Part shown: positions 4,506-64,000 of the stretch, one piece after another
Position numbering within the stretch: the stretch's first letter is position 1
Layout: each line of letters opens with the position of its first letter
Origin: Cytauxzoon felis
Taxonomy: Eukaryota > Apicomplexa > Aconoidasida > Piroplasmida > Theileriidae
Length of the DNA stretch: 64,000 nt
Reading direction: 5' to 3'
Assembly: GCA_020283715.1 (NCBI GenBank)
Contig: JAIQCW010000156.1
Coordinates: 62,001 to 126,000, forward strand
Notes under the pieces: generated by a model
Told to the model about the DNA's origin: nothing
Database searches by the model: none
Seen by the model: only the letters and a program-made list of their open reading frames with translations
Translations under genes and position numbers: made by a program

Positions 4506-6857
4506 ATGATGATGCAACCCATTCGCAACTATGTTTTGGGCCAGTTTTCAGAACTGCGCTTGGTATCCGAAAATTTTTTCACTCCAATGTCTATAAAGCC
4601 ATCAATAACGGTATTTTAAAATAATGATTATTGTTTAATTTAATAGTTGTTAAATCTTCCGACTAATAATCCATCATTTCCTGGTGAAATGGGTACTGCC
4701 GAAGTATTTGGTAGAGAATTAGTGCCAGATGTTGAATTTCCTATCGGAGAAGGTGAAAGATTAGCCGTATATACATGGATTGGATGTAGTATACAAGTTA
4801 AAGGTGTATTACAGCAGGTTCATTTATATGATTATATATGTTTTAATATTTTAGGAATATGAAGCATATGACAATTCTATGAAAGAATACCTAAATGTTA
4901 TTAATGCTTTAGATGTTGAAAGAGAATCCGCTGCTATAAAAAGAATTAATGGACCCAGGGTATGGTTGATATTTTTACCTTCTACGATCTGTAATTTAGG
5001 TACTTGTAACTGGAGCGCCTTCCAGTGGTAAATCATCGTTTTGTTCTATACTATGTAATTATGCATTAAGGAACGGTTGGACACCTGTATTTGTAGAAGC
5101 GGACCCTAGGTATGTTATATGCCATTAATCTACTAGGATTGTTTAAATTTGTTTAAAAATCGTTAACTTAGTTGCTAAATTACATGTCCATGTACTATTA
5201 ATAATGTATAAAATCTTTATATTATGCATTCAAATTATATTTATTATGTTGCTTTTTATTAATTTGTCATTATCTATATATAGGGCATCGACGGATAAAA
5301 AGAATTTACAGTTTTATCCCGGTACAATTGGTGCAACCGTTGTATCCGGTTTAGATGATGATTCTCCTAGGAATCCTTTAATATATTTTTATGGTTATAC
5401 AGATATTCAAGAGAATGAGACACTTTATATACACGTTTGTTTACGCCTCTATCTATAACTCTAAATTTCAATATAGATGTGTAAGGTTATGAGTGTATCA
5501 ATTGAGTTAATGATGGAACAAAATTTAAAATTACAACCACAGCACAGGCATTCGGATGAAGTTAATGATATGGGCAAATACATTTCTGCGTCCGGTATGT
5601 TGTTTTTAAATGTTGTAAATAATTCTCTTAGGTATGATAATAAATGCGCCATATCAGGCATCCAAGAGTACAATAATAAAATTATCGGAAATATTTAATG
5701 TATCAATGATTATTGTAATAGATTCTCCTTCTATACATCAAGCGCTAGTAAAAAATTATGCACTGCATAGTCAGCCAAAGACAAAAACTAATGATACTGG
5801 GAATCTAGAATTTGTATCACCCGCACTACTAACCAATCTAGCATTTCAAAAACAGCCAAATGATAATATTGACACAGGTATGTTAAAATATATTTGTGTT
5901 TATATACATATTCTTTTTATACCATCTATCTTTTTACAATGATCTTAGTCATGTCTTGCCATCAACTAGGCATTGAGCCTCTTCTATTTAGTTCCCCCTC
6001 CGCTTCCCTGAGATCAGCTGCGGGTAATCCACATGAGGTCCAATCAAAACCTTCACTTCCGCCACGATCTCTGGGAGTGGCTCCAGTCTTTAGAGATAGG
6101 TAATCAGAAGAGGCTCCATGCCTAGTGGAATAAAATGTGTTAATTTGGGTAACATTATATCAATGGAAAAGAAGGTGTATAGTTAGAATTAAATACGTAA
6201 TTGAATTTATACTTAACTTATTATAGCACAAGTTCAAGAGCAGGAGGTTAAGGATGATGCTAAACCAGAAATTTTGGTTCTAGGTGCATCTAAGTTGGAA
6301 GGTGTTGTATCGGTATGTCCAATTATCATTTGTAACAATTTAAATTGACCATTTATAGGTTGATAATGATCGATTAAAATATTTAAATTATGTTTGCTGG
6401 AAAAAATATTTCGAGTTGACTAGTGGAAATTACTTTCACGTTATAAGATTTAAAATGGAAAATGTAAATTTCGTATTCATTGATACAATTGCTGCTCTTA
6501 CTAAAGATGCTTTTCCAACAGGTAAATTATCATTATATAATGTAATAACTTAATTCCCTTTATAGATGAGGAATATGCCATGAAAGCTGAAGAACTATAT
6601 GCATCTAATTGGACTGGTGATCCATTAACATTAAACAACGCCATAGTAGCCATACCAACAACAGAAGAACTCAACCTCATACCGTATTGTAATATTTCTG
6701 GATTCTTCCATATTCGAAACGTAGAAGTAAATGTAAGTTGCAATCTGAAAGGGGATATGAGGATGCAATGTTATTATTAAATGAACCACTCCTTCTTAAA
6801 ATACTGGGCCACTATGATTACTTCATTAGCACAAAATTATCTCTAATTTTATATTAA
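4506..6857 (+). CDS. CLP1: CLP1-like polynucleotide kinase, pre-mRNA cleavage complex II
   Basis: Eleven exons: 4506-4610, 4647-4817, 4855-4959, 5000-5109, 5284-5434, 5477-5594, 5632-5877, 6227-6312, 6359-6521, 6566-6732 and 6762-6857, giving 505 residues, slightly longer than usual for the family. The order of landmarks matches CLP1: an N-terminal beta domain (GTAEVFGREL, AVYTWIGCSIQVKG), the Walker A loop VTGAPSSGKSSFC, VEADPR, PGTIGATV, a PLIYFYGYTD strand, and a C-terminal beta domain ending LLLKILGHYDYFISTKLSL. CLP1 binds ATP and acts in cleavage and polyadenylation of mRNA and in tRNA splicing (family knowledge). Three M codons stand in a row at the start. Most introns are 30-50 nt, but intron 7 (5878-6226) is enlarged by a dispersed repeat copy. 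Identification is firm; small exon borders are hand-made. Confidence 0.9.
5963..6129 (-). repeat. Dispersed palindromic repeat, copy 1 (in CLP1 intron 7)
   Basis: It carries the core GCCACGATCTCTGGGAGTGG, the CTTTAGAGATAGGTAAT module and the CTTCCCTGAGATCAGC module. It is bounded by inverted termini: ACTAGGCATTGAGCCTCTTCT at the left and its near reverse complement at the right. It accounts for about half of a 349-nt intron. Strand is given as the strand on which the core reads GCCACTCCC..GATCGTGGC. Confidence 0.85.
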
Positions 6858-6902
6858 CATATGGAAAGACTTGTATCTTCCAACTATCGTGGAAGATGAA
6901 CA

Positions 6903-7765: not shown

Positions 7766-7902
7766 TTGTAATATCATATCATCCATTTATATGTTGTCCC
7801 TACGAATCAGTTTCTATAAAATGTATAATAAATTACCATCGCAATCTGTCTTGAGACATTTTAAGTATAATTTCAATTTCGTTTGTTATATAAGGACGGG
7901 AA

Positions 7903-9853
7903 ATGTTAATGACTATTCGGTTTGTTGATATTTTAAAATTTTTTCATACAAGCGTCTGTAATGTGTAGATACCTTCTGTTCCCAGCATCCATGATCCACC
8001 CGTAATCAGACGCCCAGGTGATATTATTGATGCATCTACGTTAATTAGGAATCATTGGTCCTTTCCAGGTATCTACTTTTATGTTTTCCAATCTTATTAT
8101 TCCTATTAATAGCTGTTGGATTTAATAGTATTCTCGAAATACCCGTTTATAACTTTGAATCTTATGATGAAGTTGATAAAGTGGATCCTATTAAATATAT
8201 TAATGTACCTAACGATATTTTTGGGTTGCCGCTAAGGCCGGATATTTTGCATCGTTGTTATCAATTTTACAGAAGAGCTAAAGCTGGCTATTATGACGGT
8301 ATACAATTATATAAATGGGAGGTGTGTTTAGTTAATGTGTTTTAATTTCGATAATTACTAATTTAGTGGCCTGGTAGTACAAAAAAGTGGCGTAAACAGC
8401 AGAAGTCTGGAAAAGCAAGGATAGGTTGGAAGAAATCTCCTGGAAAATATTTGGGTGTATTTGCACATCCTGTAAGACCACATGATCAGAGGACTAATAT
8501 ACAGAGAAGATGTTAGTTGGCGAATTTTAAATATTGTCTCATCTCAATATTTCAGTACTTTATTTGGGGTTAAAGATTGCTCTCTCAGCTAAATTTGCCC
8601 AGGCTCAAATACAAGTAGTTGACTCATTCCTTATGAAATCACATAAAACTAAATATGCGGTAAAAAATCTTAGGAAAATCCTGGGTACGTAAAAGTTAAT
8701 GTTGTTTAAGTATTTAATTTATATCCATTGGAAATTTTTAAAAATTGACACGCTATTTTTATTTTGAATTTATATAATATACCGTTCAGGTAAAAATTGT
8801 AATTCTGCTCTATTAGTATTCTCTGATTATAATGATAGCAACGAAAATTTCCGATGGTCCACCGCTAATATTCCATCAGTACGCAACGAGGTTGTTGATG
8901 TAAGTTTTGATTAACGTATTCTATTTTGATGAACTTCTATCCTTTGATTACTCTATCACCTTTTTTGATTGTTTTTCAACGCTCGTAGATCGTGGCCGAA
9001 GTGTAGTGATGTAACCTCAAGTAGAATACCTGGAAGCGATCTACGGGAGCTGGAAGGGGAACTAAATAGAGAATCTGACGGTAGGATAGACCTTGAGTGG
9101 AAAATCTCTATGCAGTGATAAGGAACCTGGTGATAATTGTTGGTTTATTTTATAGAATATGTTGATATTAATAGACAACGTTTTATGTATATTTAATATT
9201 CAGGCGTTGAATGTGTATAATATATTAAAATATCGTCAATTGGTTATTACAGAAGCAGCATTAGGTAAATTAATTTATTTTTTACAAAATTATCCGAAAA
9301 AATGTGATTGGTTGCCAAAGTTAGTAACATATATTATTTATTATTATTCCATATAGGTATGCTACACCAGATAATAAACCAGCACCACCTCCAACTAAAG
9401 TTAAAGGATGGAACAATATATGGATTCAGGATAAAATTAAAGCTAAATTATCATCGCAAACAAGGGTTAGTTATTTACAAGTTTATATAACGTCAATATC
9501 TTTCTTCAATTTCATTTAGGAGGAATGGTTAGAGCGAGTAAAAAAGTGGAAATGGTCTTCGGATACTAAAGGAGCTTTAAAAGTTCCTAGATATGATCCA
9601 TTTGATAATTTTAAATTAACATTTATTAATTATAACAACAATCTCGATATTAAAACCAGATATCAATATTTATACGATTCTAAATTTTATCAAGGCTTAG
9701 ATGAACTGGACGATGGAGATGTTATGGACCACGAGGAATTAGAAGAATTAGAGGAATACTTAGATGTAGGAAAGATTAGTCTATAATTATATTAATATTT
9801 TATAGGACAATGTTGAGAATTATAGAAATATTAATGACTTGTTAAAGGGCTGA
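7903..9853 (+). CDS. Mitochondrial large-subunit ribosomal protein uL4
   Basis: Exons 7903-7923, 7969-8068, 8113-8321, 8367-8511, 8556-8684, 8790-8899, 9204-9319, 9357-9465, 9520 to about 9769, and a likely last exon ending at 9853 (DNVENYRNINDLLKG). If the last intron is not spliced, the stop is at 9784-9786. uL4 landmarks appear in order: IPVYNFES, PLRPDILHRCYQFYRRAK, STKKWRKQQKSGKARIGWKKSP, FAHPVRPHDQ, LGLKIALSAKFAQAQIQVVDSF, SALLVFSDY and ALNVYNILKYRQLVITEAAL. The acidic C-terminal extension is not standard for bacterial uL4. The third exon begins with a hydrophobic run that could extend a targeting region. Intron 6 (8900-9203) carries a repeat copy. Confidence 0.85.
8984..9101 (+). repeat. 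Dispersed palindromic repeat, copy 2 (in uL4m intron)
   Basis: It contains AGATCGTGGC, TAACCTCAAGT, GAAGCGATCTACGGGAGCTG, GGGGAACTAAATAGA and a CTGACGGTAGGA module. It lies in the sense orientation and swells the intron to about 304 nt. Confidence 0.8.
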
Positions 9854-22227: not shown

Positions 22228-23192
22228 ATGTCATGTCCAGCGGATGATGATAGTACATCGCAATGTAGTCCTATTAACGGTAATAAGTATGCTAATTATA
22301 TAATACCTGGTGATATATTGAATAAATTAGATAATAAACGTATAAGATCTAATATACCTAATAAGGATTCATCTAATTGGTTATATCCATCTCATAGGCA
22401 ATTTTATAAATCTACGGTAAATAAAGGTTAGTAATTGCTCTTGTACACATTATATTCATAGGCCATAATATTGATGTCGAATTAATACCAACGATTGTTG
22501 ATATTCACAATGTTATTAATGAAAAGGCATGGGAAAAGGTTATGGAATATGAATCATTACATAAGAATCAGTGCAAAAACTCTTTACTAGTAAGATTTGT
22601 TGGGAAAAGAAATGAACCATCAATAAGATCTATGATTTATCAATTACTTGGATATAAAGCACCTTATGATCGTCATGATTGGTTCGTCGATAGATGTGGA
22701 AAACGAATTAGGTAAGTATCTTTGAAACATGTTACTATTCGATTTACCGGAATACTCCCATCATATATCCAAACTTTTATTTTCCACTTACAAAAGGTCA
22801 CTTCAACAACAGTCCATCTTTATCTCCTTCACTAGGTAATCCACCTGAGGTCAATCCTGCCGTCAGCTCTACTAATTCACTCCCCGTAAACGGCAGAGCC
22901 ACTCCCGGAGATCGTGGCAGAGGTGTAGTCACTGGACCTCGGGCGGAGACCTCAGTGGAACACGGAAGCGATCTACGGGAGCTGATGGTAATTTAATATT
23001 TATTATCATTTGTTTGGGATATTTATTTATCACAATTAATAAATAAACATAATTAGGTATATATTGGATTTCTATGAGGGTAAGAGTTTAGATGGTGATA
23101 GTTGTTCGGTGTTTATAGATGTTCGCCCGTCCTTTTCATTATTTGGTTTATATGACCAATTGCGATTATGGTATAACCGTAGGTACAGTTAA
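22228..23192 (+). CDS. HCCS: Holocytochrome c synthase (cytochrome c haem lyase)
   Basis: Exons 22228-22426, 22462-22711 and 23057-23192 give 194 residues. It starts MSCPADDD; the Cys-Pro is the haem-binding CP motif usual near the start of this family. Later landmarks are [78 protein letters not shown] and FIDVRPSFS. The enzyme attaches haem covalently to apocytochrome c in the mitochondrial intermembrane space. Intron 2 (22712-23056) is expanded by a repeat copy. The stop is 6 nt from the stop of the convergent small-TIM gene, whose product works in the same compartment. Confidence 0.93.
22829..22985 (+). repeat. Dispersed palindromic repeat, copy 3 (in HCCS intron 2)
   Basis: It contains CCACCTGAGGTC, CCTGCCGTCAGCT, GCCACTCCCGGAGATCGTGG and GAAGCGATCTACGGGAGCTG, in the sense orientation of HCCS. 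Confidence 0.85.
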
Positions 23193-23198: not shown

Positions 23199-23826
23199 TT
23201 ATTGAAGTTGTTGTAATTGTTGTTGCTGTTGTTGTAATAAATTTCCTACGGTAGTATGCACATCTAAATACTTTTTAATTTTGTCTAAATTTCATACAAT
23301 TTACATCTTACCTTATTAACACATCGATCGACACAACTCTGTTCTCCGCTATCCAATTGTTGAGATCTTATCGATGATATACACTTGGTCCAACATGTAT
23401 CTCTCATCCTGTATATTAATAATTACATAATTTCTCAATACATTGGACTACAGCACCCACAGCTGATCTCTGGCAAGTGGAGGGACAACTAAATAGAAGA
23501 GCCACCACGGCGAGTGGAAAGATATACAGCTCTCATTTCTTGTATAGATATCTATACTTGAGGTCGTCTTGCAGACAGCTCTTCTATTTAGCTATCCCCA
23601 AGGGGTGGAGCCACTCCCGGAGATCGTGGATAAGGGTGGATGGATATTTAAAAAACATCCAATAGAAATATCCACATGAATGTTTAAATTTAATGAAATA
23701 CAATGTGTATTGTTGGATTTTATAAATGTATTTCAATTCAACTTACCTTTTGAGCATATCAGCCATACCTACAAGTTCCGCAACAGCGAGATCAACGGGA
23801 TCATTAATACTACCATCATTAGACAT
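23199..23826 (-). CDS. Small TIM chaperone (Tim8/Tim13-like)
   Basis: Exons 23747-23826, 23312-23408 and 23199-23270 give an 82-residue protein. The middle exon holds the twin CX3C motif, CWTKC...CVDRC, separated by 15 residues (CWTKCISS, then QQLDSGEQSCVDRCVNKYLD), which defines the Tim9/10/8/13 family. These proteins carry hydrophobic precursors across the mitochondrial intermembrane space. The C-terminus is glutamine-rich (LLQQQQQQLQQLQ). The first intron (23409-23746) is enlarged by a repeat copy. Assignment to Tim13 rather than Tim8 is open. Confidence 0.85.
23459..23641 (+). repeat. Dispersed palindromic repeat, copy 4 (in small-TIM intron 1)
   Basis: It contains CAGCTGATCTCTGGCAAG, CCACCACGGCGAGTGG, GTCTTGCAGACAGCT and GCCACTCCCGGAGATCGTGG. 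The core is antisense to the host gene. Confidence 0.8.
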
Positions 23827-24880: not shown

Positions 24881-25226
24881 TTCCACTCACACCTGAGGTC
24901 ACAATCCACCTATTTTCATCTTGCAGACAGCTCCTCCACCTGAGGTTACAACCATGTCTTCCCACTCGCCGTGGCGGCCTCTTCTATTTACTTCCCCCTC
25001 AAGTTCCCGTAGATCACTTTCGGGTAGTCCACCTGAGGTTACATCCAATACATCCTTAGAACCATCTTCCATCATTCCCATGATGGATGATCCATCACTA
25101 CCCTTCGATGATCCATCACTACCCTTCTCACCGCCACGATCTCCGGGAGTGGCTTTACTCTTTAGAGATAGGTAATTAGAAGAGCTCCATGCAATGGGAA
25201 ACAGAGGCGGATTGGATGTCGAGTGG
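24881..25226 (-). repeat. Dispersed palindromic repeat, copy 5 (intergenic, long subtype)
   Basis: It has several ACCTGAGGT modules, CCACTCGCCGTGGCGGC, CCCGTAGATCAC, the core GCCACGATCTCCGGGAGTGG and CTTTAGAGATAGGTAATTAG. It also has an extra segment, CCATCATTCCCATGATGG, with a tandem ATGATCCATCACTACCCTTC unit. The extra segment is shared with copy 6 in RAD17. It ends 17 nt before the RAD17 stop codon. Confidence 0.85.
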
Positions 25227-25242: not shown

Positions 25243-28200
25243 TTATTCTGTGATATTTTCATATGGTTGATTGATATGATGTGTGATATGGAATTGTTGT
25301 TTGGTTTTATAATGTTTGGAGATTTCATTGAGTAGATCTTTGAATTTAGGTGTGATTGTATTTAATAGATTGACATTATTTAATGTTTTGGGGCTAGATT
25401 TGGGTGTATTTGAAGTGATGATATTATTTTCCATAATATATTCAACAACACCCATAACATCATCATCTAGATCGATATTTATAGTACTATAATAAGTAGA
25501 TGAATTTGGTGATTGTGATAATTCAGATGAGATTGGTGTATTGTTATAAATATCATTACCATGTGTTAATGATGTATACATGATAGGTAAAATTTCAGTA
25601 AATGCAGTATTAACATTATATAAATGTGGTATATTATCTAATAATTGTAATGATTCTAATCTATACATATAATATAAATCTTTAATATAATCAATTTTAT
25701 ATTTAATACTATTAATAGAATTAGATTTAATAAAAGGTTGAAATCCTATATTATCTTTAATAATATTACTAGATAAATTACAATCAGAAATAGATTTTAA
25801 TATAATTAATAAAAAATGTTCTATAAATAAATTATCATTATTATTAATATAATAACCATTATATATAATATCAGATATAGTAAAATATGTAATTAATATA
25901 CTACAATCATCTATATTACTATAATATTCACTATAATTATCAAATAATAAATCTATAAATGTATTATAATCATATTTTATTTCATTTAATATATCAATAT
26001 GATTAAAATATAATTGTGGTCTTGTTAATTTTGGTATCATAATATTACGATTTTGTCTAGATGGTGTCATATCCATATTTAATTCTATTATAGGATAACG
26101 TGTATAACTTAATGGATCTATATCATCAAATTCTTCATATAAACCACATAATCTTATATTTGCTGGTAATTTATATAATAATGAATCATCAAAACATTTA
26201 TTAGTTAATATCATATTTAATGGATCATATATATCAAATATATCTATTTCTTCTTCATATTCCATTATTGAATCACCTAAACCATCTATTATATCATCAA
26301 TATTATCTAATATCTCATATATATCTGAATATATTATATTAAAAGAGGAATCTTCTTTAATTACATCACTACTCTTTATAATATCACGCTCTTTCTTAAT
26401 AATATCCGATTCTTGAATATTATAAACATAACAACCACGTTCTATAGGAGTAGATATATCCATATATGGTATCATTAATGATAAATTATCACAATCTACA
26501 GTAGATACTCTACCAGTAATCATATCATCATTATTAAATGATTCACCAATTGTATTTTCCATTTTTACAACATCAATCAAAGATCCCTTTTTATCATATA
26601 ATATCATATCCTTATCCTCTCCACCTGATGTTACAACCTTGTCTTTCCACTCGCCATGGTGGCCTCTTCTATTTAGTTGTCCCTTCCCTTCCCTGAGATC
26701 AGCTGTGGGTACACTCGAGGTCCATTCTCTACTTTCCATTCCACTAGCCGTGGTGGCCCTTCTATTTAGTTGTCCCTCCGCTTCCCTGAGATCAGCTACG
26801 GGTATTCCACTTGAGGTTACATCCAACAGATCCTTAGAACCATCTTCCATCATTCCCATGATGGATGATCCATCACAACCTTCTCTACCGCCACGATCTC
26901 TGGGAGTGGCTCTACTCTTTAGAGATAGGTAATTGGAAGAGCTGTCTGCAGGACGAAGAGAGTTGGATTGGACCTCGGTGGAAGAGCTGTCTGCAAGACG
27001 AAGAGAGTTGGTTGTAACTTCAGGTGGAAGATAGTTGGTATAATCTTGTGTTGTGTTATTATTAATGAATGAATCATTATGATTATATGTGAAGTTATTA
27101 AATCTGTGTGGATAAGATTTATATAAAGTTGATGTATTGAAATAATCTAATTTCTTTATATTATTAATTAATGGTATACCTCTAGATATTTTAAAGCAAA
27201 ATAATGTAGATTTAATTTTAGATTGTAAATAATTATCATTATTATTATTATTAGTTGTATTACATATTAATTTTGATGGTAATCTTTTATTATATAATAA
27301 TTTACCAATTAGATTATATTGTGTTGGTGGTAATTTTTCTAACATATAATTTTTAATATTATCTAATTTATCATTATTATATAAACCATAAAATTTTAAA
27401 TTATTTATTGCATATCTTATATCACCATAACATATATTTACGATATAATCAATTAATATATTATTATAATTTTTATTATATTTTAATATAGATTTTAATT
27501 TATTTTTTGTTATTGGTTTTAAATTTATCATTAAACATTTTGGATGATTCATATAATTATATGGTAATAATCTTCTTAATATCATTGAATCTTCTAATGA
27601 ATTATTTATACATATTAATAATGGATATGGTATATTACCATTAAATTTCATTTTACCATTTAATAATCCTTTAATTAATTGTTGTATTTTAAATAATATT
27701 GGTGATCTTTTTATTAATATATTCCTTGGTAAATCTGTTAATAATATTATATGTGGTTCATTAATATTATTATCTATATCCGATTTTAAACGCTTAATCT
27801 TACGTGAACCTATTAATAATGGTCTTGTATTATTATTAGACATCTTTAAACCACTCCTACTCATAGTACTCTCCAAAAATCTTAATAATAATAATAATGA
27901 TGTCTCAATATCTTCACCATTCATTACCACCATATCAAATGGATCATAACCTATTATACGTAAACCCATATCCTTACATAAACAACGAACTGCCATTAAC
28001 TTACCTGAACCACAGGTACCTTTTATTATACATAAATTCTTCTCATCATATGATGTACCTGTAATATATACATATATTCAATATATACTTTATACATTAT
28101 CAACTCTCCACTCGAAGTCCAATCCAACTCTTCTTCCACTCGCCGTTCCACTTGAGGTCAACTCCCAACTCTCGATTCCACTAGGCGTGGAGCCTCTTCT

Positions 28201-28640
28201 AATTATCTATCTCTAAAGAGTATAGCCACTCCCAGAGATCGTGGCGGATGTAGTGATTGGACCTCAAGTAGACTACCCGCAGCTGATCTCAGGGAAGCGG
28301 AGGGGGATGTAATTGGAAGAGCCACCACGGCTAGTGGAAGGAGAGTTGGATTAGACCTCGGGTGGAGAGGTTGTATATAATGAATATAAGGTGTGTTAAA
28401 CAAACCGCTACATTGTGTGGGTACATCACTAAAAGCTTGAGTTCCGGATAATGTATCAACAAGTGTTGTATAATCTCCATCATTTCTGGGTGAATCATTA
28501 GCTTTATAATTTCGATTCTTTACGGATGTTAGGAATTTTTTTAATAAATCCAATTCCTGTGGTCTCCAGGGTATATCATCAACGGTATAATTTAAATTAT
28601 CGATATTATTTAATCTTCCTTCAGTAGACAATAGATCCAT
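25243..28640 (-). CDS. RAD17: RAD17-like DNA-damage checkpoint clamp loader
   Basis: Exon 1 is 28406-28640 and exon 2 is 25243-28058, together 1016 residues. Exon 1 carries DDIPWRPQELDLLKKFL, similar to the segment before the ATPase domain of RAD17. Exon 2 opens with the Walker A region CIIKGTCGSGKL, then MAVRCLCKDMGLRIIGYDPFD, a Walker B-like HIILLTDLP, and a helical AAA lid (NICYGDIRYAINNLKFY). RAD17 with RFC2-5 loads the 9-1-1 clamp at damaged DNA. The middle is Asn/Ile/Asp-rich. Residues of about 422-558 are encoded by a dispersed repeat copy read without a stop, unless that part is spliced out. The single clear intron also carries a repeat. RAD51-like gene upstream, same strand. Confidence 0.8.
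26620..27028 (-). repeat. Dispersed palindromic repeat, copy 6 (inside RAD17 exon, in frame)
   Basis: A compound 409-nt copy read in the RAD17 frame as peptides including EVTTNSLRLADSSS, NYLSLKSRATPRDRGG, SIMGMMEDGSKDLLDVTSSG and two versions of ADLREAEGQLNRRATTASG. It has no stop codon. Orientation is sense to the gene. Confidence 0.85.
28107..28367 (+). repeat. Dispersed palindromic repeat, copy 7 (in RAD17 intron)
   Basis: It contains CCACTAGGCGTGGAGCCTC, TATCTCTAAAGAG, GCCACTCCCAGAGATCGTGG, CAGCTGATCTCAGGGAAGCG and CCACCACGGCTAGTGG. The core is antisense to RAD17, and the repeat makes up most of the 347-nt intron. Confidence 0.85.
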
Positions 28641-32238: not shown

Positions 32239-32563
32239 TTTTAAAACTCTTTATTTCATGAAAATCTTATTAAATTTAAACCGTTATCTCATGAAATTAC
32301 ATTAATTCTGGCTCAATGAGATCTTGCTCTTACATCTTTAACAAAGAATATGTACCGAATTCTATCATTATCTTTAAGCGTCAGCATTTATATATAAATT
32401 TAATCATGTTTAATCTAAAATTTTAGCATGTTATTATCTAATCTGATCTATAAAACGTTGTTGTGGGTTGTCACCAGACAATTGAAATAATTATTTGATA
32501 TGTACTTTATAAATGTAGTAAATATAGTATTAAATAGTTTATGTTTTATTATATTCAGGAACT
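32239..32563. other. Intergenic between divergent genes
   Basis: This region separates the start codons of CK2 beta (minus) and RIO1 (plus) and presumably holds both promoters. AT-rich; no other feature is seen. Confidence 0.5.
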
Positions 32564-36775: not shown

Positions 36776-37030
36776 CTTCCACCGAGGTCCAATCCACCTG
36801 AGGTTACCACCACCGTAGGTCGTCCTGCCGTCAGCTTCTCTATTTACCTTTCCGTAAACGGTAAAGCCACTCCCAGAGATCGTGGCTATGATGGAGGTGT
36901 AGATGTAATGAAGAGTAGTACTGGACCTCAAGTGGAATACCCGTAGCTGATCTCAGGGAAGCGAAGGGGGAAGTAAATAAGGAAGGCCTCCACGGCGAGT
37001 GGAAGACCTCAAGTGGAACAGCAGTGGAAG
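36776..37030 (+). repeat. Dispersed palindromic repeat, copy 11 (intergenic)
   Basis: It contains CCACCGAGGTCC, CCTGCCGTCAGCT, GCCACTCCCAGAGATCGTGG, a segment GGAGGTGTAGATGTAATGAA shared with copy 9, CGTAGCTGATCTCAGGGAAG and CTCCACGGCGAGTGGA. It lies 120 nt downstream of the RRM gene. Confidence 0.85.
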
Positions 37031-39206: not shown

Positions 39207-39529
39207 TCCGCCACGAACTCTGGGAGTGGCTTTACTCTTTAGAGATAGCTAAATAAAGAAGACTCCACCTGAGGTTACAACATTCCCTTCCACTAGCTGT
39301 GGAGGCTCCTCCAATTACCTATCTCTAAAGAGTAAAGCCACTCCCAGAGATCGTGGTGAAGGTAGAGGTGTAGATGGAATGAAGGGTAGTACTAGACCTC
39401 GAGTGGAACCCGTAGCTGATCTCAGGGAAGCGAAGGGGGAAGTAAATAGAAGAGCTGACGGCAGGACGACCTCAGGTGGAGAGGCCACCACGGCGTGTGG
39501 AAAGACAAAGTTAGGGCCTCAACTGGAAC
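39207..39529. repeat. Dispersed palindromic repeat, copy 12 (intergenic inverted pair)
   Basis: It starts with GCCACGAACTCTGGGAGTGG and CTTTAGAGATAGCTAAATAA. A second part in the other orientation follows: TATCTCTAAAGAG, GCCACTCCCAGAGATCGTGG, CGTAGCTGATCTCAGGGAAG, GCTGACGGCAGGACGACCTC and CCACCACGGCGTGTGG. Confidence 0.87.
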
Positions 39530-47278: not shown

Positions 47279-50200
47279 ATGTCGCTTCAGATGGGATTTA
47301 CGAAAAAATTGGAATTGCGTACGGAGAAGGTGAAATGCGTGGATATACATCCAATGGAACCATGGGTAGCATCAGCAATGTATAATGGATCATGTACTAT
47401 ATATAACTATGTGACACAATCATTGGTAAAGAGGATAGATATATGTGATGTACCATTGAGGACATGTAAATTTGTAGCTCATAAGCAATGGATATTGGCT
47501 GCGGGTGATAAAATGTGTATTTGGGTATATAATTATAATTCATTAGAAAAATTGAATATAGTAGAAGGACATAAAGATTATGTAAGATCATTAGATGTAC
47601 ATTCAACATTACCATATGTTATAAGTTCATCTGATGATATGTCTATAATTTTATGGAATATAGATAAGAATTGGGAAAAGGTAGCTATTTATGAAGGACA
47701 TTCACATTATGTAATGATGGTTAAATGGAATCCAAAGGATATGCATTTATTTGCATCATGTTCATTAGATCGTACTATAATGTTTTGGGGATTACAAGAA
47801 TCATCAACAGAACAACCTAAATCATTTTTTACATTAACTGGACATGAAAGAGGTGTAAATTGTATAGATTTTACTACAAATCCATCATATCCATATATAA
47901 TATCTGGTTCTGATGATTGTACTATACGTGTATGGGATTATCAAACAAAATTATGTTTTCAAGTATTAAAACAACATATAAAAGGTGTTACTAATGTATT
48001 ATATCATCCAAGATTACCATTTATATTATCATGTAGTGAAGATGGTGATTTTAATATTTGGAATGCCAATTTATATAAAATTAAACGTTCCATTAATTAT
48101 GGATATGGTAAATTATGGTCAATATCTAGTAGTAGTGTTGATACAGCTATTGCAAGTGATTCTGGTACATGTGTAATTCAATTAGCTGGAGATAAACCAT
48201 TAGTATCTATGCATACAAATAAATTAGTAATGGTCAAATCTTCTGATATAATGAGTTGTAATTTAAATTCTATCGATCCTAAATCTATTATACCCGGTCA
48301 ACCATTATCTCTATCATTTAGAAATATCGGAAGTTGCGGTATGTCTATTATCATTAATATTATTAATCTTTGTAGAATTCTTCCCACAAAATGTATCATA
48401 TCATCCAAATGGACGCTTCATATGCCTCTATGGTGATTCCGAATTTATTATTTACACGTCACAGGTATGTACAACTATATTCCATTCCACATTATATTCC
48501 ACTCTCCCATACATCTGAGGCCCAATCTACCTCTCTTTTCCACCTGAGGTTACAACCACCTTTCCTTCGTCTTGCAGACAGCTCCTCTAATTACTTCCCC
48601 CTCCACTTCCCTGAGATCAGCTACGGGCTCCACTCGAGGTCAAATGACTACCTTCATCACCGCCACGATCTCCGGGAGTGGCTATACTCTTTAGAAATGA
48701 CTAAATGAAGAAGCCTCCACGGCGAGTGGAACAGAGGTTGTAACCTCAGGTGGAAGTGGAAAATTGTTGTTATGTATTGATTTATATATATATATATATA
48801 TTAGGGTATGAAATCGAAATGTTTTGGTAAGGCATCTCAATTGGTATGGTCATTTGAGGGTGATTATGCTACATATGATGGTATTGAATTGAGTTTATAT
48901 CATGATTTTGTTGTACGTGATGTAATGAAATTGGATGGTCCTATAGTTAGATTATTTGGTGGTTATTTATTGAGTATATGTAATGAGAATTCAATAAGTT
49001 TTTATGATTGGTCTACATTGACATTATTGAATACTATTGATGATATTCATGTTGAAGGATTATGGTGGAATGAATCATCTAAGAAATTATCTATATCAAC
49101 ACCAACATCATGTTTTATATTAAAATATAATATAAATAATAATGAAGATGAATCAAAATTATTTATATTAGAAAAAGAAATAATAGATCGTATAACAAGT
49201 GGTATATGGGCTATGGATACATTTATATATATAAATAGTTCATTACATTTAAATTTATATATATGTGGTGTAATAGAAACATTAATATATTTAGATCGTC
49301 CTTTATATATAATTGGTTATTCAATTGAAACATCATTATTATATTTATCTGATGATAATATATGTTGTTATATATTAGATTATAATTATTTAAAATTTCA
49401 TTCATTAATATATAATGAATATAATGATAATGAATTACAATTATATTTAAATAAATTATCACAAAATTTAAAAGAAAAAGCATCAAAATTATTAGAATCA
49501 TTAGGTAAATATAATTTATCATTATATTGTACAAATGATCAAGATCGACAATTCGAATTATATCTTAAATTAGGAAATATCAATAAATGTATCTCTATAT
49601 TATCATCTAATGATAACTCTTCCAATAATTATAATAATATCACCATCAAAAAATGGAAAATATTAGGTAATCATGCACTCAATAATAATGATTATCATAA
49701 CGCAACCATCTGCTTCAAAAAATCCAATGATTTCACCAATCTACTACTCATCTATACAATCACAGGTATGTCTAACTCGAAGTACTGTACATACTTTCTT
49801 TTCCACTCCCCTCCACCGTTGGTCTTGCAGACAGCCTCCTCTATTTACTTCCCCCTCAAGTTCCCGTAGATCGCTTCCAGGTTCCACTTGAGGTTATAAA
49901 CCTAATCTCGCTGAGATATGACTAAAGTGACGGAATTCATGTTCGTACGGATATACCAATTAATATAAATTGGAATTAAATGAGGTTTCTTGAATTCAAT
50001 ACAATCATTAAATTCCTTTTCAATGAAGTATTGACATTAATATTTCATTCAATCGTCATTCCATAATCTTCATGAGTTTCCCCAGAAATTGAGGATTTCC
50101 TTCAAATTTTGAAGGTAAAAATGAAGTAGTGGAAGTCAGTGATGTAACCTCAAGTGGAGAACCTGGAAGCGATCTATGGAAGCTGGAAGGGGAAATATAT

Positions 50201-50828
50201 AAAGAAGGCTCCACGCCTAGTGGGAAGACCTCATATGGAACGGCGAGTAGAAGATAAGGTCGATTTAACATCAGGTGTATTTATCTCCATATGAGAGAAA
50301 TTTTGGTTATTTTAAATTAATGTATAGGTGATGTTGAAGGTATGAGATTATTGGGTAGAGATTCGAAGAAGAATGGTGTATTAAACATATCATTTATGTG
50401 TTATTACATGTTGAATGAGATTGAGGAATGTATAAATGTATGTTTATATTACAATTTATATATAAATTATTTATACAATTAGATGTTACATCTAATGGGA
50501 CGTCATAGTGAGGCTACAATTATGGCAAGATGTTATAAACCTTCAATTGTTGGAAAATCATTTGAAACTTGGAAACATAATTTTAAATCAAATGTAAGTC
50601 GTATATTTTAACAAGCTCACTTTATTAAATTTTCAGTTGAATGAATTATTACCTGTTACAATAGATGAACAGACATTAAATTTAGAAAATTTATTAAATG
50701 AACGACTTAATACATTAGGATTCCCAAAATCTACCGATTATAAAGAATATAAAGATATCTTACACGTCGATTATAAAAATCTGCAAGATCAAACACAAAT
50801 TAAACAAACTTGGAATGCCGGACTTTAA
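47279..50828 (+). CDS. COPB2: Coatomer subunit beta' (COPI coat)
   Basis: Exons 47279-48338, 48376-48464, 48805-49765, 50328-50437, 50483-50593 and 50637-50828 give 840 residues. WD repeats fill residues 1-300 (VEGHKDYVRSLDVHSTLPYVISSSDDMSIILWNID; YEGHSHYVMMVKWNPKD; LTGHERGVNCIDF). The second propeller and alpha-solenoid follow, ending with CYYMLNEIEECINMLHLMGRHSEATIMARCYKPS, typical of coatomer beta'. It sits on Golgi vesicles and binds dilysine cargo. Two introns (48465-48804 and 49766-50327) are enlarged by repeat copies; the others are 37-45 nt. Confidence 0.95.
48508..48756 (-). repeat. Dispersed palindromic repeat, copy 13 (in COPB2 intron 2)
   Basis: It contains CCACCTGAGGTTACAACC, GTCTTGCAGACAGCT, CTTCCCTGAGATCAGCTACG, GCCACGATCTCCGGGAGTGG, CTCTTTAGAAATGACTAAAT, GCCTCCACGGCGAGTGGA and GTTGTAACCTCAGGTGG. 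Its first and last modules are inverted copies of each other. Antisense to COPB2. Confidence 0.87.
49801..49896 (-). repeat. Dispersed palindromic repeat, copy 14 (in COPB2 intron 3, left arm)
   Basis: It contains GTCTTGCAGACAGC, CTATTTACTTCCCCCTC, CCCGTAGATCGCTTCC and CCACTTGAGGTT. Together with copy 15 it forms an inverted pair about 250 nt apart. Confidence 0.8.
50143..50254 (+). repeat. Dispersed palindromic repeat, copy 15 (in COPB2 intron 3, right arm)
   Basis: It contains TAACCTCAAGTGGA, GGAAGCGATCTATGGAAGCT, GGCTCCACGCCTAGTGG and ACGGCGAGTAGA, the inverse of copy 14 for the shared modules. Confidence 0.8.
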
Positions 50829-50946
50829 ATATAAAGCCAGCCTAATAACATGTTATTAATACTCGTTATATAAATACCGTCGCAGTTCCATACAAAGCAT
50901 ATCTCATCATATAGACACGGGGATATATGCTTGAGGTTACATATGT

Positions 50947-51200
50947 TCCACTTCCACCCGAGGTCCAATCCTACCTTCTTTCGTCTTGTAGACAGCTTCT
51001 TCTATTTACCTATCTCTAAAGAGCAAAGCCACTCCCAGAGATCGTGGAGGAAGTGATGATTGGACCTCATGTTGAACTGGACTACCTGGAAGCGATCTAC
51101 GGAAGCTGGAAGGGGAAGTAAATAGAATAGCTGACGGCAGGACTAACCTCAGGTGGAGGCCACCACGGCAGTGGAACACTGGTTGTAACCTCGGATGGAA
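50947..51200 (+). repeat. Dispersed palindromic repeat, copy 16 (intergenic)
   Basis: It lies between the COPB2 stop and the bL35 stop. It contains CCACCCGAGGTCC, GTCTTGTAGACAGCT, TATCTCTAAAGAG, GCCACTCCCAGAGATCGTGG, GGAAGCGATCTACGGAAGCT and GCTGACGGCAGGACTAACCTC. The rest of the 50829-51294 gap shows nothing. Confidence 0.87.
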
Positions 51201-51714: not shown

Positions 51715-52553
51715 TGATACATAAATTACACATTTTATGCGATGAATTTATAAATTACTAATATACAAATTTATATTTCATGAGTTTTAATAGGAATAAG
51801 TAATTACGTATACACTTTACAACGGCATAATTATGTGAGGATGTAAGTGTGTAAGATTCTAAGTGTATTGCCGGGATAATTCACTTCAATTGAATATTAA
51901 ATCAAAATAATGTATTGTTTTGTGTATCTTAACGATTTTTTGAAAGTAAAATCTTCAGATTGTATAGAATCTAATCCATAACACTATGTTGTCTATTCCC
52001 TTATAATCTATCATCTTTAGAGCAGTAAGAATGTATTCCCATTATCCGTGGATATTCCCTTCTAAATACTTCCCCCTCCGCTTCCCTGAGATCAGCTACG
52101 GGTATTCGAAACGAAGTACTGTTCTTTTTGTTGAGACTAATAAGTGTCATGTTTAATATAATAGTCTACATTAAAGGGGACAAGCGTAGTTAATATTCAA
52201 TATTATTGTATTAATATATACGCTTGTGGAATTACATTCGATATGAGAGACCTCGGGATTTATTTTTTTAAATTTACAATATAGAACTCGTTTTAATAAA
52301 ATTTGATACACTCAGTGTCCTTATCTATTTTATTAGTGTTGAAATTTAGAATCAGCTATGTTTTGCTTAGAACAGTATGCTATAAACTCAAATGTGTACC
52401 TAAACGACCTATTAATGCAAATTATAAGTGCTATCATTAGTATATTAATTAAAATATTTGATAAATAAATAGTTTATGTTACTATTTGAGGTGTAAATAA
52501 ATTAAACAATAATAGTAATTTTGAACATTAGCATACGGGAATCTTGTAGGAAA
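51715..52553. other. Intergenic with a repeat fragment
   Basis: This region separates the divergent bL35 gene and the next plus-strand gene and probably contains both promoters. Apart from the partial repeat at 52059-52106, nothing is recognised. Confidence 0.5.
52059..52106 (-). repeat. Dispersed palindromic repeat, copy 17 (fragment)
   Basis: Only the TTCTAAATACTTCCCCCTCC and GCTTCCCTGAGATCAGCTAC modules remain, followed by GGGTATTC. No core, so this is a truncated or single-module copy. Confidence 0.75.
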
Positions 52554-59327: not shown

Positions 59328-62300
59328 TTATTGTTCTTCAAATATTCTTCTTATGGCTTCATATATTACATGTCCCTTATCTGTATATTCAACGGTTTTA
59401 TGCAAATGTTTTTTCCAAGTATTACAGAGATGTTTATAAATTGGCTGTAATAATAAAATATGAAATATTTTATCAAAATACCTCAGATTTCAATGATAAT
59501 AATTGTGCTATCATATACTCCTCCATATCTTCATTCGTTTGTCTAATAATTGTACAAAATACCTAAAAAATGATATTTAAATAACAAGTTAGAATATATT
59601 TTCAGCTCCTTCACTCAAAGTCCATCCTTGTCTCCACCTGAGGTCCAATCCTACTCTCTTTTCCACTCGCCGTGGAGGCTTCTCTATTTACTTCACCCTC
59701 CGCTTCCCTGAGATCAGCTACTGCTAATCCACTTGAGATTAGAATCTCTGTTCTTAGGGGTTTCAATAATTATAGATTATGGAGTAATATTAGATTGTGG
59801 TGTAAATTAACCCCATATATCCAACATTACAACATTTGATAGCAATACTTATAATAAATAACTTTTGTTAAACTTAAATATATATTGCCGGTAAACATGG
59901 TAATCATGCACGTGGTTAAAAACGTAAGTCCATTGAACTGTGATACCGCGCCGTTGAAATTATAATTTTGTTTTCCACCACCAGAAAAACCAATCGCTTC
60001 CAACCACTCCTCAACAACATTAAAAATATTACCGACAATACCAGCAACTATTAAATTGTTCTTTACATAACGCCCAATTAAACCTTCGGGGAAATGTAGG
60101 GTTCTAATGAACACATGGATGCATAGGATATAAGGGATAGCAAAAACCCATTGATAATGCCAATATTGTCTAGCCTTCCAATTTTCTCCACCAAATTCTG
60201 GGACACCACCTGGGCCATGCAATGTGTTACCGTCATTCACTGTATCCATGACAGCAATGGCATATGTTGGTAATGTGGATACAAATTGAATCCATAAATC
60301 TATAGTCTTGCTCTTAAAAGGATCATCGACAAGAGAATACGGGGATATGGAAGGATAGAAGGCGTATACCGTACCCAAAGAAAATGCCAACATTAGTACA
60401 GGTGATAATTGCTGAGGGGTTGTAAATAAATCACCTATACCCGTATCGCGACTTAGACCAACAGTCACTGCCGTATATACAATTAATCCAACAGAAATTC
60501 CAACCATCTTTGAAGATGCATGAGAAATTATCAAACCAATTATAACAGAAACAATCGGTATACCAGCGATGAAGCCAACATAATAGAAAATTATATTGTA
60601 ATATTGTTCCTGTAATATGCCTTGAAGTCTATTTTTATTATTTTCACCATTAGGGTGTTCATTCTCATCAAGTTTATCTGTTTCCGTAGCAGTAGGATTA
60701 GGTTTTGATGTTAATGCCCAATCAGTTTTATTCTCCAATGGCCATGTATATGGAGCATTAGGCTTATAGTATTTGTATGTACTCCCTAGTGATACACAAA
60801 CTAATATCGGTATACCACCGAAATGGTATACATAGACGTAATGGACATCACCACTGACACCACTTAAACTAACACTATCACCTCGATTTTTAAATTCTCG
60901 ATTAGTACTGGTTATCTTCTTATATTTATGATTGCCATTGTTTTCGAATTTAAGAAAATAATGTGTATAAACTCGTATCGGATGCATTGGATGGTCACGA
61001 GTTTCCCATACAGAAACCTTTTCAGCATTAGTAGTACCAGTTTCTGTACCTGATTGATATCCATTCGTTTTATCTATATGTATTTCAGCATTATCAATAG
61101 TTTCACCACTACCAGTGGCTTCACCACCCTTGGCCATACCAGGTTGATCAACCACTAATGTCCCTGGTTTGCATTGCATTCCTTGATCTGCGGTCCATAG
61201 GATGGAAGCTGCAAACAATAAAATCATAGTGTACCAATATTGTACAATAACCAATTTATAATCTTAATCCTCCCAGTGATATATATTATACAATCCCTTA
61301 TAGACATAATGTAGGATGAATGTAGCAAATCCTGATGAAGGCACACCAGCACCATATAAAGATGAATTAAAATTGACACCGAATGTTAGATTGGAATATA
61401 CACCATTTGCAAAGGTAATTAATAATATACTCCAATAGAACTGATCAAAGTAACCAAAATCTCCACCGGATATAAAGGTTATAAATGAAATAACCGATGA
61501 TAAAAACATTGACCACACACCTAATATAGACAAGGCTCTATTTATAATTTTATACTTAAATGTAGCATCATTCATCCATGTTATAACATTTACTAATAGT
61601 GATGACATCAAACTAGTTAGTTCCATAGGGTTGTGGATCTTGTAGATAAAAAGGCTTACCGTAGGCATGGGTAAATGAAATCTCTTTAATACATGTGGAG
61701 CACAAGCCATAGCGATACGATGCGGGGTTAACATGATGAATCCAGCAAAGAACATAGCAGTCTTAGCTAAAGGACCAAATGGGTCAGCCATTTTATAACA
61801 ATATCCTTATCTCCATTTTTAGTTTATTCCAAATTATCCCCCTCCCCCGTCATTTAAAGAAATAATATAAAGAATATAATTCCAGACTTTTTTGTTATCG
61901 CAACCTTCAACGATATTGGAGATAATAAGAATTGGACATCAGTGGATTGCCCGTAGTTGATCTCAGGGAAGCGAAGGGGGAAGTAAATAGAGAAGCTGAC
62001 GGTAAGACGAAGTGAGTAGGATTGGACTTCAGGTGGAGATGTCTCTGCAAGAGAATGCGAGGTTGTAACCTCAGGTGGTGACAATGTGAAGAAAATGATA
62101 AATTTTAAAGGAAGTGGGTTTATAAACGCACCGTAGTTAGGAATATGAGTGTTGATTTATCTTTTAAGTCTTCTCGTTTTAAAAATCTTAGAATTGTAAG
62201 TAGTAGAATTTTTTCAATAACCTGTGATTTTCTAAGATCCAATTTCGAAAAACGTACGAGTGTTGTAAAGTAAATACCAAAGATTTCAGCCTTTTCTTCA

Positions 62301-64000
62301 ATTAAATAATTTACATTTTGTAAATTAACCAATACCACACTAACTAATGAACGCTTATAACGTTTACCAAGACTCATTGGTAATCTGTAAATATAATAAT
62401 GAAATAAGTCCCATCTACATATAATCATAAAATTATATCTTCAATATTCGCCTCCACCTGAGGTCGTCTTGCAGACAGCTTCCTCTATTTACTTCCCCCT
62501 CCGCTTCCCTGAGATCAGCTATGGGTAGTCCACTTGAGGTCCAATCACTAACTTCGCCACGATCTCTGGGAGTGGCATCACCCTTCAGGGATATATAATT
62601 GGAAGAGGCCTCCACGGCGAGTGGAACAGTGGTTGTAACCTCAGGCGGAGACGAGCTCTCTACAAGAGGGACAGATGTGGAATGGACCTCATGCGGAAGA
62701 TATTCAGGACGTATGAGATGAAAAAATGGTATAACTCAACTATAGTAAAATATACCTGCATAATGATTTGGTAATTTCTAAATAGTATGGGTTATATATT
62801 TTTTCGGCCAATAATGTTTTGATTATTGTACTTATAACTTCTGGTAGCTAAGAATTGATTTATAAAATATAAATGATATTAAATTAACCTTTTTCGTCTT
62901 GATACCTAATTCTGTTATCCTTTCTACAGCATGAATGGGACTTTGTGCAGCTGCTATAGCAACAAATGTAGACTTTTGACAATTTGAATGAAGGCTATTA
63001 AATTGATATAAAATCAAATTTAATAAATCATACCCTAGTTTTATAGCTCTTTTCAATAATAAGGGAGTAGAATCTATACTTTTATTATTGTTATCATCAG
63101 TTAAAATTAATGAATTTTCATTCATTTTTTCTAGAATTATACTTGCAGATAATTTTCCAAGCATAAATTCTTCTCTAAATGATAAGAATTTTTCCCAAAT
63201 TATACATTGTCTATCAATAGTTTCTGAGGATAATACATTCTCAACCATGTTTCTATATATTAATAAAAGAAGTTAGAGATGAATTAATAATTAAAAATAG
63301 TCTACATACTTAAGAAAATCGAAATTCTCAAGAGATTTCTTAGTCTTTGATAATTTAAATGATTCAATTTCTTGTTCAATAAATCTTAAACGACCTACAA
63401 ATGAATGTATTTTATAGGAAAAATCACCTCAAATAAAACTTACTTTTACTTAAATCGCCATAGACATCTTTATATTGTACAATTAAACCAGTCAAATAAT
63501 TCAATACTTCAGTAAATGATTCATTACTATAATCCCTTATTAAATAACCTAAAATTATATTATCAACCAATATTCGTTGTAGTATCACATCAACATCTTC
63601 CGCATGAGGTCCACTCCACCGATCGTTCCACCTCCACCTGAAGTTACATCTTTATCTTCCACTCGCCGTGGTGGCGTTCTCTATTCACTTCCCCTTCCAG
63701 CTCCCGTAGATCGCTTCCAGGTTCCACTTGAGGTCAAATCACAACTTCAACCTGCGCCACGATCTCCGGGAGTGGCTCTACTCTTTAGAGATATATAAAT
63801 AGAGAAGGCCACCACGGCGAGTGGAAGATAAGGATGTAACCTCAGGTAGAGTTCTATTAGATATAATTAGGATGGGTATATAGAGACCTATATATGGACA
63901 ACTCAATTGGTATTTTCATTTACATGATGTCATTAACATACCATTATGTTTGAGTAATGTGATTAATAATTGTGCGATATGATCATTGAGTCCATTTTTG
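59328..64000 (-). CDS. NOM1: NOM1/SGD1-like nucleolar MIF4G/MA3 protein, N-terminus beyond right edge
   Basis: Exons seen from the 5' side: 63942 to beyond 64000, 63444-63596, 63310-63394, 62889-63252, 62756-62847, 62132-62414, 59482-59562 and 59328-59444; phases agree throughout. The MIF4G-side helices include HIAQLLITLLKHN and ERITELGIKTKKLPEVISTIIKTLLAEKIYNPYYLEITKSLC, then WDLFHYYIYRLPMSLGKRYKRSLVSVVLVNLQN with the MA3 part VRFSKLDLRKSQVIEKILLL, which matches the end of NOM1 and yeast Sgd1. These proteins act in 18S rRNA processing with an RNA helicase (family knowledge). Three introns carry repeats, and the 2569-nt intron 59563-62131 also contains a whole membrane-protein gene on the same strand. 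Confidence 0.78.
59632..59739 (-). repeat. Dispersed palindromic repeat, copy 18 (in NOM1 large intron, 3' side)
   Basis: It contains CCACCTGAGGTCCAATCC, CCACTCGCCGTGGAGGC, CTTCCCTGAGATCAGCTACT and CCACTTGAGATT. It lies between the nested gene's stop and the host acceptor site. Confidence 0.82.
59827..61791 (-). pseudogene. Multi-membrane FAINT-containing family copy B, nested in NOM1 intron, one in-frame TAA
   Basis: One reading frame from ATG 61791 to the stop at 59827, interrupted by a single TAA at 61264-61266 after GLYNIYHWED; the frame resumes directly as DYKLVIVQYWYTM, aligning with WDDYDYKLVVVQYYFTM of copy A. So it is either a nonsense-disabled gene, a sequencing error, or read through. 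The rest is intact over about 650 codons: N-terminal membrane segments (GFIMLTPHRIAMACAPHVLKR), a hydrophilic part with one FAINT-like unit (VHYVYVYHFGGIPILVCVSLG), and C-terminal membrane segments (SPVLMLAFSLGTVYAFYPSIS; LCIHVFIRTLHFPEGLIGRY). Copy B has a shorter hydrophilic part than copy A. Confidence 0.75.
61828..61866 (-). promoter_or_regulatory. G-rich 39-nt block upstream of nested gene B
   Basis: Exact copy of the block before gene A, ending 36 nt before the ATG at 61791. On the coding strand it carries GGGGGAGGGGG flanked by AT-rich sequence. Probably promoter or 5' UTR; not shown. Confidence 0.65.
61932..62078 (+). repeat. Dispersed palindromic repeat, copy 19 (in NOM1 large intron, 5' side)
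   Basis: It contains GTAGTTGATCTCAGGGAAGC, GGGGGAAGTAAATAGAGAAG, CTGACGGTAAGACGA and GTTGTAACCTCAGGTGG. It is located between the host donor and the upstream block of the nested gene; antisense to both genes. Confidence 0.83.
62451..62699 (-). repeat. Dispersed palindromic repeat, copy 20 (in NOM1 intron)
   Basis: It contains CCTCCACCTGAGGTCG, TCTTGCAGACAGCT, CTTCCCTGAGATCAGCTATG, GCCACGATCTCTGGGAGTGG, GCCTCCACGGCGAGTGGA and TTGTAACCTCAGGCGGA. It fills most of the intron 62415-62755, in the sense orientation. Its minus-strand frame reads SSNYISLKGDATPRDRGE and ADLREAEGEVNRG, as in the exonic copies. Confidence 0.87.
63598..63850 (-). repeat. Dispersed palindromic repeat, copy 21 (in NOM1 intron, abutting the acceptor)
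   Basis: It contains GCATGAGGTCCACTCC, CCACCTGAAGTTAC, CCACTCGCCGTGGTGGC, CCCGTAGATCGCTTCC, GCCACGATCTCCGGGAGTGG, CTTTAGAGATATATAAATAG, CCACCACGGCGAGTGG and TAACCTCAGGT. On the minus strand the terminal module ends ATGCGGAAG, whose AG is the likely 3' splice site of the next exon. Confidence 0.85.

Follow-up and report, generated by a model that had tools for sequence, protein, structure and literature searches.

A high-copy modular palindromic repeat, with copies open in frame inside genes, in the piroplasm Cytauxzoon felis

The stretch of Cytauxzoon felis DNA analysed here (the window; 64,000 nucleotides (nt), positions 62,001 to 126,000 of contig JAIQCW010000156.1, forward strand) contains a RIO-kinase open reading frame (ORF), a DIS3-like ORF, whose top five matches are in Theileria and Babesia (47-51% identity), and a beta'-COP gene. 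Scattered between and inside its genes are copies of a short palindromic repeat. An earlier note on this DNA, made from the letters alone, had counted about 21 copies. We mapped the repeat with 11-mers that recur 8 or more times in a sample of 264 kb (120 kb of C4, 70 kb of C8 and the window with 10 kb extra), joining gaps of up to 45 nt into islands, and obtained 23 islands, which span positions 5975 to 63847 of the window. The count thus stands, but the repeat is genome-wide and no feature of this contig. A search with anchored profiles of two half-element types, I and II, called 36 halves in the window (16 type I and 20 type II) and 98 type I and 133 type II halves in the sample, with none in the reversed sample used as a control. 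Unless stated to be genome-wide, the counts of islands, halves, ORFs, hairpin stems and phase given below are from the sample.

A full copy consists of two inverted half-elements, one of each type. Each half is built, from the centre outward, of an apical hairpin, a linker, GTAAWTAGAAGAG, an exchangeable hairpin slot and the end module ACCTCARGTGGA. The apical hairpin is an invariant 11-nt loop, GATCTNNGGGA, placed on any of several complementary stems, and the type I linker holds a second hairpin. The two types are inverted homologues with a common loop, so the whole unit folds back on itself. The modules listed in the earlier note are present, each in both orientations, with exact hits numbering 15 for ACCTGAGGT, 11 for GCCACTCCCRGAGATCGTGGC, 9 for CTCTAAAGAG (counted as the listed TCTCTAAAGAG minus its first base), 7 for CTTGCAGACAGCT, 9 for GCTGATCTCAGGGAAGCG, 9 for CCACGGCGAGTGG and 3 for CTAGGCGTGGAG; the homology of the inverted halves, and the covariation of stems around an invariant loop described below, had been missed. 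Among 148 islands, 59 carry I then II on one strand, 52 a solo II, 16 a solo I and 4 neither. The full copy at 28105-28370 of the window folds into a single long hairpin (-127.3 kcal/mol, z -8.5, 0 of 200 shuffles), and 34200-34530, folded as DNA, gives a z of -4.9. Overall, z was below -2 in 31 of the 39 I-II islands tested, out of 59 such islands (25 shuffles each). The slot type of one half does not depend on that of the other (10 matches in 48 copies versus 11.5 expected, after 11 of the 59 I-II islands with one slot unassigned were dropped), so that halves or slots reassort; on the same count we rejected the idea that the conserved feature is pairing of one half of a copy with the other.

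The family is dispersed throughout the genome. By exact motif matching over the whole assembly (8.62 Mb, 181 contigs; control, the reversed sequence), the apical loop occurs 7,145 times, or about 0.8 per kb (14 in the control), the end module 6,584 times (0) and the G core GCCACTCCCRGAGATCGTGGC 2,071 times (0), so that the repeat is no product of chance. The sample holds 61 and 63 G cores, predicting about 1,990-2,060 genome-wide, and is therefore representative for the G core. The 148 islands (median length 186 bp) make up 10.6% of the sample and are GC-richer than their surroundings, as had been claimed (50.6% versus 28.7% outside). The earlier description of a modular, palindromic, high-copy family in a piroplasm, with no mobility gene of its own seen, also agrees with these results. 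Individual halves are nearly unique: 97 of 98 type I and 133 of 133 type II halves are distinct when aligned, though their cores are near invariant. Mismatch is 1.1-1.7% at sites at least 95% conserved in hidden Markov model (HMM) alignments (sites picked for conservation), and 10 of 64 and 17 of 65 HMM-alignment sites are less than 60% conserved, partly through subfamilies and loose alignment. We read this as a constrained core atop a varied pool of source copies, not one old burst.

The arms of the hairpins change together. Perfect 3-bp pairing flanks 203 of 215 exact apical loops, versus 68.5 expected if the arms were independent, and is achieved with seven stem types: CAC/GTG (84), GCT/AGC (79), AGC/GCT (26), AAC/GTT (7), GAT/ATC (4), GAC/GTC (2) and AGT/ACT (1). 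The second hairpin of type I has a perfect 4-bp stem in 75 of 85 cases (shuffle mean 39.4, maximum 51), formed by CTCT/AGAG, CCGT/ACGG or CCCT/AGGG, and once each by CCCA/TGGG and CCCC/GGGG. GCA-centred strings within islands are perfectly paired in 75 of 393 cases, versus 11.7 expected (GTCT/AGAC 55, CTCT/AGAG 12, CCAT/ATGG 8), and for ACGG the figure is 77 of 323 versus 19.3 expected, with four stems. A mutual-information scan blind to pairing ranked a stem pair first in type I, and second in type II, behind a pair in the unaligned slot. Changes in the second-hairpin stem change the peptide (LSLKS, LSLKG, LPVNG); what has been preserved is the hairpin more than the peptide. Non-CTCT stems of this hairpin are found in 13 of 19 long-frame copies and in 17 of 66 others (Fisher p 0.001); the coding type I copies may be a subfamily, or may have been sorted by peptide.

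Some copies are open in frame inside genes, both in the window and in the rest of the sample, a property that had escaped the earlier note. Islands wholly inside ORFs of at least 250 aa number 27 of 148, versus about 60 expected at random. Halves are contained in 19 of 66 such ORFs, in canonical orientation and frame in 18 and as an opposite-strand half only, near the end, in one. At C4:48687-51533 (minus strand) lies a 949-aa ORF with internal repeats and a reverse-oriented half-element near its end. Of the six frames of the type I consensus, a single one is free of stops. In the type II consensus the corresponding frame is open, and so are frames on the opposite strand, yet all type II halves in long ORFs are in canonical orientation; the host gene therefore seems to have filtered the copies rather than made them. 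Among 68 I-II pairs, half II is in phase 0 with half I in 13 of 13 cases in which at least 150 aa of open canonical frame precede half I, and after these pairs the frame continues for at least 92 residues. With 60-149 aa of upstream frame the phases split 6/0/2, and with less than 60 aa they split 20/14/13, which is near random. These figures are conditioned on the upstream frame alone, since selecting pairs by total ORF length, which puts 17 of 17 in phase, is partly circular. At the point directly outside half I, a frame open over 150 aa or more lies on the canonical grid 15 times and on the other two grids 1 and 2 times. The cores of copies outside long frames (divergence 0.117 for type I, 0.166 for type II) and of coding copies (0.140 and 0.139) have diverged to a similar degree.

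The host genes are unrelated to each other. Besides the window ORFs of Table 1, they include a glutamate-cysteine ligase, a GTPase and a polyprotein ORF that matches Toprim, AAA and 3'-5' exonuclease and, below threshold, polymerase A; peptides of the type ADLREAEGEVNR are encoded in the RIO-kinase, glutamate-cysteine ligase and GTPase hosts. In the ligase the insert lies in a loop of variable length, 62 to 242 residues in eight related proteins versus 155 here; the element was seen in none of the eight, and the variability of the loop weakens the case for a clean extra piece. In the GTPase ORF (L025:5392-6744, minus strand), which we take to be NOG1-like, 305 repeat-rich residues separate the P-loop and switch matches, versus 4 in archaeal PH1320, with these stretches scoring 14.9 and 19.0 bits and introns possible within the 305 residues. 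This ORF, with its insert of about 300 residues, is a striking test case for insert tolerance. In the beta'-COP gene of the window, the element-bearing intron runs GT..AG from 48465 to 48804 (splice sites placed by eye), and the exons on both sides match solved beta'-COP. Islands between convergent ORFs are in mild excess (32 of 115 versus 21% of gap bases) and those between divergent ORFs in deficit (26 of 115 versus 30%), and islands face the nearest long ORF equally often in either orientation (56:56).

Table 1. Repeat copies and host ORFs of the window (roman numerals, half-element types)
Feature	Positions	Strand	Remark
Repeat island, halves II (5976-6043), I (6059-6119)	5975..6130	-	
Solo half II (9013-9072) and flanking hairpin module	9008..9101	+	
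Half I (22855-22920) and apical-hairpin sequence downstream	22839..22984	+	
Halves II (23455-23503), I (23567-23629)	23455..23629	+	
Two islands (24889-25046, 25130-25197), halves II, I on one strand	24889..25197	-	
Two islands (26617-26824, 26887-27028), halves II, II, I, in frame in ORF 25243-28077	26617..27028	-	
Full element, I (28186-28247), II (28257-28324)	28105..28370	+	Stops in all six frames over 28080-28380
Solo half II, in frame in RIO-kinase ORF	33613..33727	+	
Full element, I (34329-34392), II (34429-34489), in frame in RIO-kinase ORF tail	34207..34557	+	
Two type I halves in opposite orientation	35581..35764	.	
Full element, halves I, II	36782..37019	+	
Reversed half I, then halves I, II	39208..39495	.	
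Full element, II (48580-48640), I (48660-48723), antisense in beta'-COP intron	48538..48761	-	
Solo half II (49834-49899)	49813..49934	-	
Island with half II (50147-50210)	50015..50260	+	
Full element, I (50985-51049), II (51077-51127)	50930..51192	+	
Solo half II	52057..52118	-	
Solo half II and end module	59631..59742	-	
Half II and downstream modules	61937..62078	+	
Full element, halves II, I	62451..62645	-	
Full element, halves II, I	63631..63847	-	
Host: RIO-kinase ORF (PF01163), two in-frame insertions	32534..34702	+	
Host: ORF of 944 aa, in-frame insertion	25243..28077	-	P-loop-like start by eye; no Pfam match

One host is the surface antigen cf76, which we located with 100% identity over 723 aa at C114:6540-8708, in agreement with contig00195:6540-8711 given in the available text of PMC6310948, and which contains two element copies. 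According to the accessible part of PMC3748084, the 2,172-bp cf76 ORF was amplified from cDNA made from RNA treated twice with DNase, so the element stays in the cf76 mRNA; two fragment primers given there lie within element 1 (L031). Within the element 1 region the two cf76 protein clusters differ at 47 of 116 aligned columns, and elsewhere at 14 positions, so that 47 of the 61 differing columns fall in element 1. The C-terminal region of cf76 is described, in the published text available, as having a 30-bp tandem repeat that varies in copy number. The tandem repeat that we observe there is of 33 bp and consists of the slot hairpin and the end module; it is likely the same repeat, the match in length not being exact. 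A full element lies in frame in the C-terminal fragment, which is reported to have strong linear epitopes recognized by cat sera. When the element peptide of the RIO-kinase ORF was compared with 5.8 billion proteins (199 candidates, restricted in length to 397-1263 aa and to those sharing 5-residue words), the sole matches at E <=10 were the two cf76 clusters.

In our view the repeat is probably a family of selfish, modular and palindromic DNA elements that has dispersed across the C. felis nuclear genome, working like the Rickettsia palindromic elements (RPEs). The hairpins would be the tag by which copies are recognized and multiplied, probably while single-stranded, as DNA or RNA, by an enzyme supplied in trans, which was not found in the searches described below. 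Copies landing in exons would persist solely if their orientation and phase leave both halves free of stops, and would then be translated as tolerated, probably flexible, inserts; the modules are further shuffled by reassortment between copies. The non-autonomous element proposed in the earlier note is thus the reading we favour, its activity being something that we infer. More tentatively, it is possible that this is a mobility system new for eukaryotic nuclei, in which a hairpin with an invariant 11-nt loop and swappable stems is recognized and copied single-stranded by a trans-acting enzyme, leaving in-frame segments in about a quarter of long ORFs, a published vaccine candidate among them, in a phylum reported to lack DNA transposons.

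Several results weigh against a mobile element. The longest string shared between the flanks of an island averages 5.45 nt, versus 5.54 after shuffling (148 islands), giving no sign of target-site duplication, with the qualification that island boundaries are fuzzy and duplications of 2-3 bp would be missed. The sole RVT_1 match at E <=0.001, sought as a partner reverse transcriptase, is the telomerase ORF, and the rve, Y1_Tnp and DDE_3 profiles found nothing, their positive controls being detected (that for the Y1 transposase in 5 of 14 genomes). Between isolates no empty site was observed; movement is inferred from the dispersal of copies. The stem types mark subfamilies, and the copy count is therefore not a count of independent events. 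Covariation also is not uniform: the G[CG]C[GT]A slot hairpin is paired in 86 of 196 cases versus 49 expected, with two stems only, and palindromes with a one-base loop, such as the end module, show little excess (468 of 59,662 versus 360 expected). Finally, divergence of coding type I copies is lower at codon position 2 (0.086) than at position 3 (0.188), a hint of protein-level constraint. Two further searches bear on mobility. The Helitron_like_N and DDE_1 profiles gave no match, but neither did their controls, and other transposase families were not searched. No paralogous or segmental empty site was found, the top pairs, 100% identical, being neighbouring islands with overlapping flanks.

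The family might instead have spread and been homogenized without any jumping, through gene conversion, template switching and slippage between short hairpins, with copying of one arm remaking the stems. The earlier note had named gene conversion as a possible driver, and it remains a rival, since the independent slot types of the two halves are what reassortment predicts; the mosaic variation of nearly unique halves around near-invariant cores and the 33-bp tandem duplication of module units in cf76 also fit, and arm copying would yield paired stems without selection. Conversion, however, requires a copy already at the site and places none in introns, intergenic DNA or unrelated genes, and for a single loop to carry seven stem types, correction would have had to recur in separate lineages. 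We regard this explanation as unlikely. Somewhat less likely still is that the hairpins are kept for a host function, such as RNA processing, transcription ends or chromosome organization, like some bacterial REP/BIME units. The conservation of stems by covariation and the enrichment between convergent ORFs would be consistent with such a function, but the even orientation to the nearest long ORF argues against it, and about 0.8 loops per kb, with copies in coding frames and in an intron, are hard to fit to a per-gene signal.

Two other explanations concern the coding copies. If the repeat were a protein domain or shared epitope amplified for its peptide, for example for antigen variation, the noncoding copies would be debris; the peptide does occur in 18 of 66 ORFs of at least 250 aa and in a surface antigen whose clusters differ mainly in element 1, and the codon-position signal in type I copies points the same way. 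Yet the frame is kept in 13 of 13 long frames while phase is near random in short ones, which argues strongly against an ordinary protein domain. This near-random I-II phase with short upstream frames, together with the similarly conserved cores outside long frames, is the ground on which we rejected the domain reading and consider it very improbable. The compensatory stem changes that alter the peptide, and hosts as unrelated as glutamate-cysteine ligase, RIO kinase and GTPase, also speak against it. In a microarray described in the available part of PMC6310948, 38 of 673 proteins reacted with cat serum, fewer than would be expected of a dominant epitope present in about a quarter of long ORFs, the arrayed set being a selected one in which element carriers are not identified. 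Slightly less credible still, and the least probable of these alternatives, is that the coding copies are skipped by the ribosome, like the mitochondrial palindromes of Magnusiomyces capitatus, or spliced out. GC-rich hairpins in coding genes do resemble the Magnusiomyces elements (PMC6649704, in its accessible text), and at least one copy lies in an intron; skipped or spliced copies, however, need no open frame, which 13 of 13 nevertheless retain, and the 2,172-bp cf76 cDNA product reported in the available text is the full ORF with both elements.

No description of the repeat was found in the open-access literature, which leaves most subscription papers outside, and there was no Rfam match in the window at gathering thresholds, in agreement with the earlier note, which did not know it from described piroplasm repeats. 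Like miniature inverted-repeat transposable elements or foldback elements, it is short and dispersed, has inverted halves and shows no mobility gene, but its flanks have no excess of shared strings, within the resolution of the fuzzy ends given above. It is unlike a short interspersed nuclear element, given the lack of small-RNA matches in the Rfam search of the window and a sole RVT_1 match to telomerase. BOX, RUP and REP/BIME are mosaics of short hairpin modules in varying order, bacterial and mostly intergenic, and the Y1 transposases are the family of the REP-associated RAYTs. The C. felis repeat shares the mosaic of hairpin modules with REP/BIME and differs in that the Y1 (RAYT) profile has no match in C. 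felis, with the control detection stated above. The GC clusters of yeast mitochondria are likewise palindromic elements that interrupt genes, and are organellar. The Magnusiomyces mitochondrial palindromes interrupt genes and are translationally bypassed, according to the available text of PMC6649704; they are organellar and untranslated, whereas the C. felis copies keep frame and are predicted to be translated. BOX and RUP are named among bacterial repeats in the accessible part of PMC3049150. PARCELs, which the available text of PMC2996958 describes as tandem 25-residue amphipathic coding repeats with dyad symmetry in microbes including eukaryotes, are alike in coding and symmetry, but the C. 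felis copies are dispersed inserts and not tandem, as far as descriptions can be compared.

The closest likeness, again by description, is to the RPEs, to which we compare the C. felis repeat by mode of working without claiming it as one of them. As summarized in the accessible text of the review PMC10969869, RPEs are palindromic repeats of about 150 bp, found in and between genes, inserted in frame in unrelated genes with a conserved peptide, and present in 44 copies in R. conorii. The C. felis repeat is similarly short and palindromic, with inverted halves folding into a long hairpin, its islands being somewhat longer (median 186 bp), and it is likewise in frame in unrelated genes with a conserved peptide (18 of 66 ORFs; 13 of 13 pairs in phase). 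It differs in residing in a eukaryotic nucleus and not a bacterium, in its number (7,145 apical loops), and in having two inverted, separately occurring halves with exchangeable hairpin slots and stem-swapping around an invariant loop. A bacterial, viral or plasmid source was rejected: the 18-mer of the type I core has 8 scattered exact hits in genome_contigs (prokaryotes), none titled Rickettsia and about 15 being expected by chance by our estimate, and 1 exact hit in viral_contigs, and window positions 28105-28370 matched no plasmid.

A 2022 survey of 64 apicomplexan genomes (PMC9141347) reports that C. felis yielded no transposable elements and that none of Class II were found anywhere in Apicomplexa, its initial MITE candidates having all been set aside as likely false positives; against this stands a dispersed repeat that makes up about a tenth of the sampled sequence. 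If our favoured reading is true, the repeat is a nuclear counterpart of the protein-invading palindromes of Rickettsia, and it makes testable how proteins acquire segments of non-protein origin. Recombinant cf76 holds two copies, and serology, sequence typing and vaccine work should therefore take into account that part of the antigen is a genome-wide repeat. Separately, some I-II spacers (L024:6356-7906, L025:6665-8164 and C8:29209-30819) carry an extra repeated peptide of the type STRKNVNVQPLRTGNLPGGTKDVNPEE, possibly another module.

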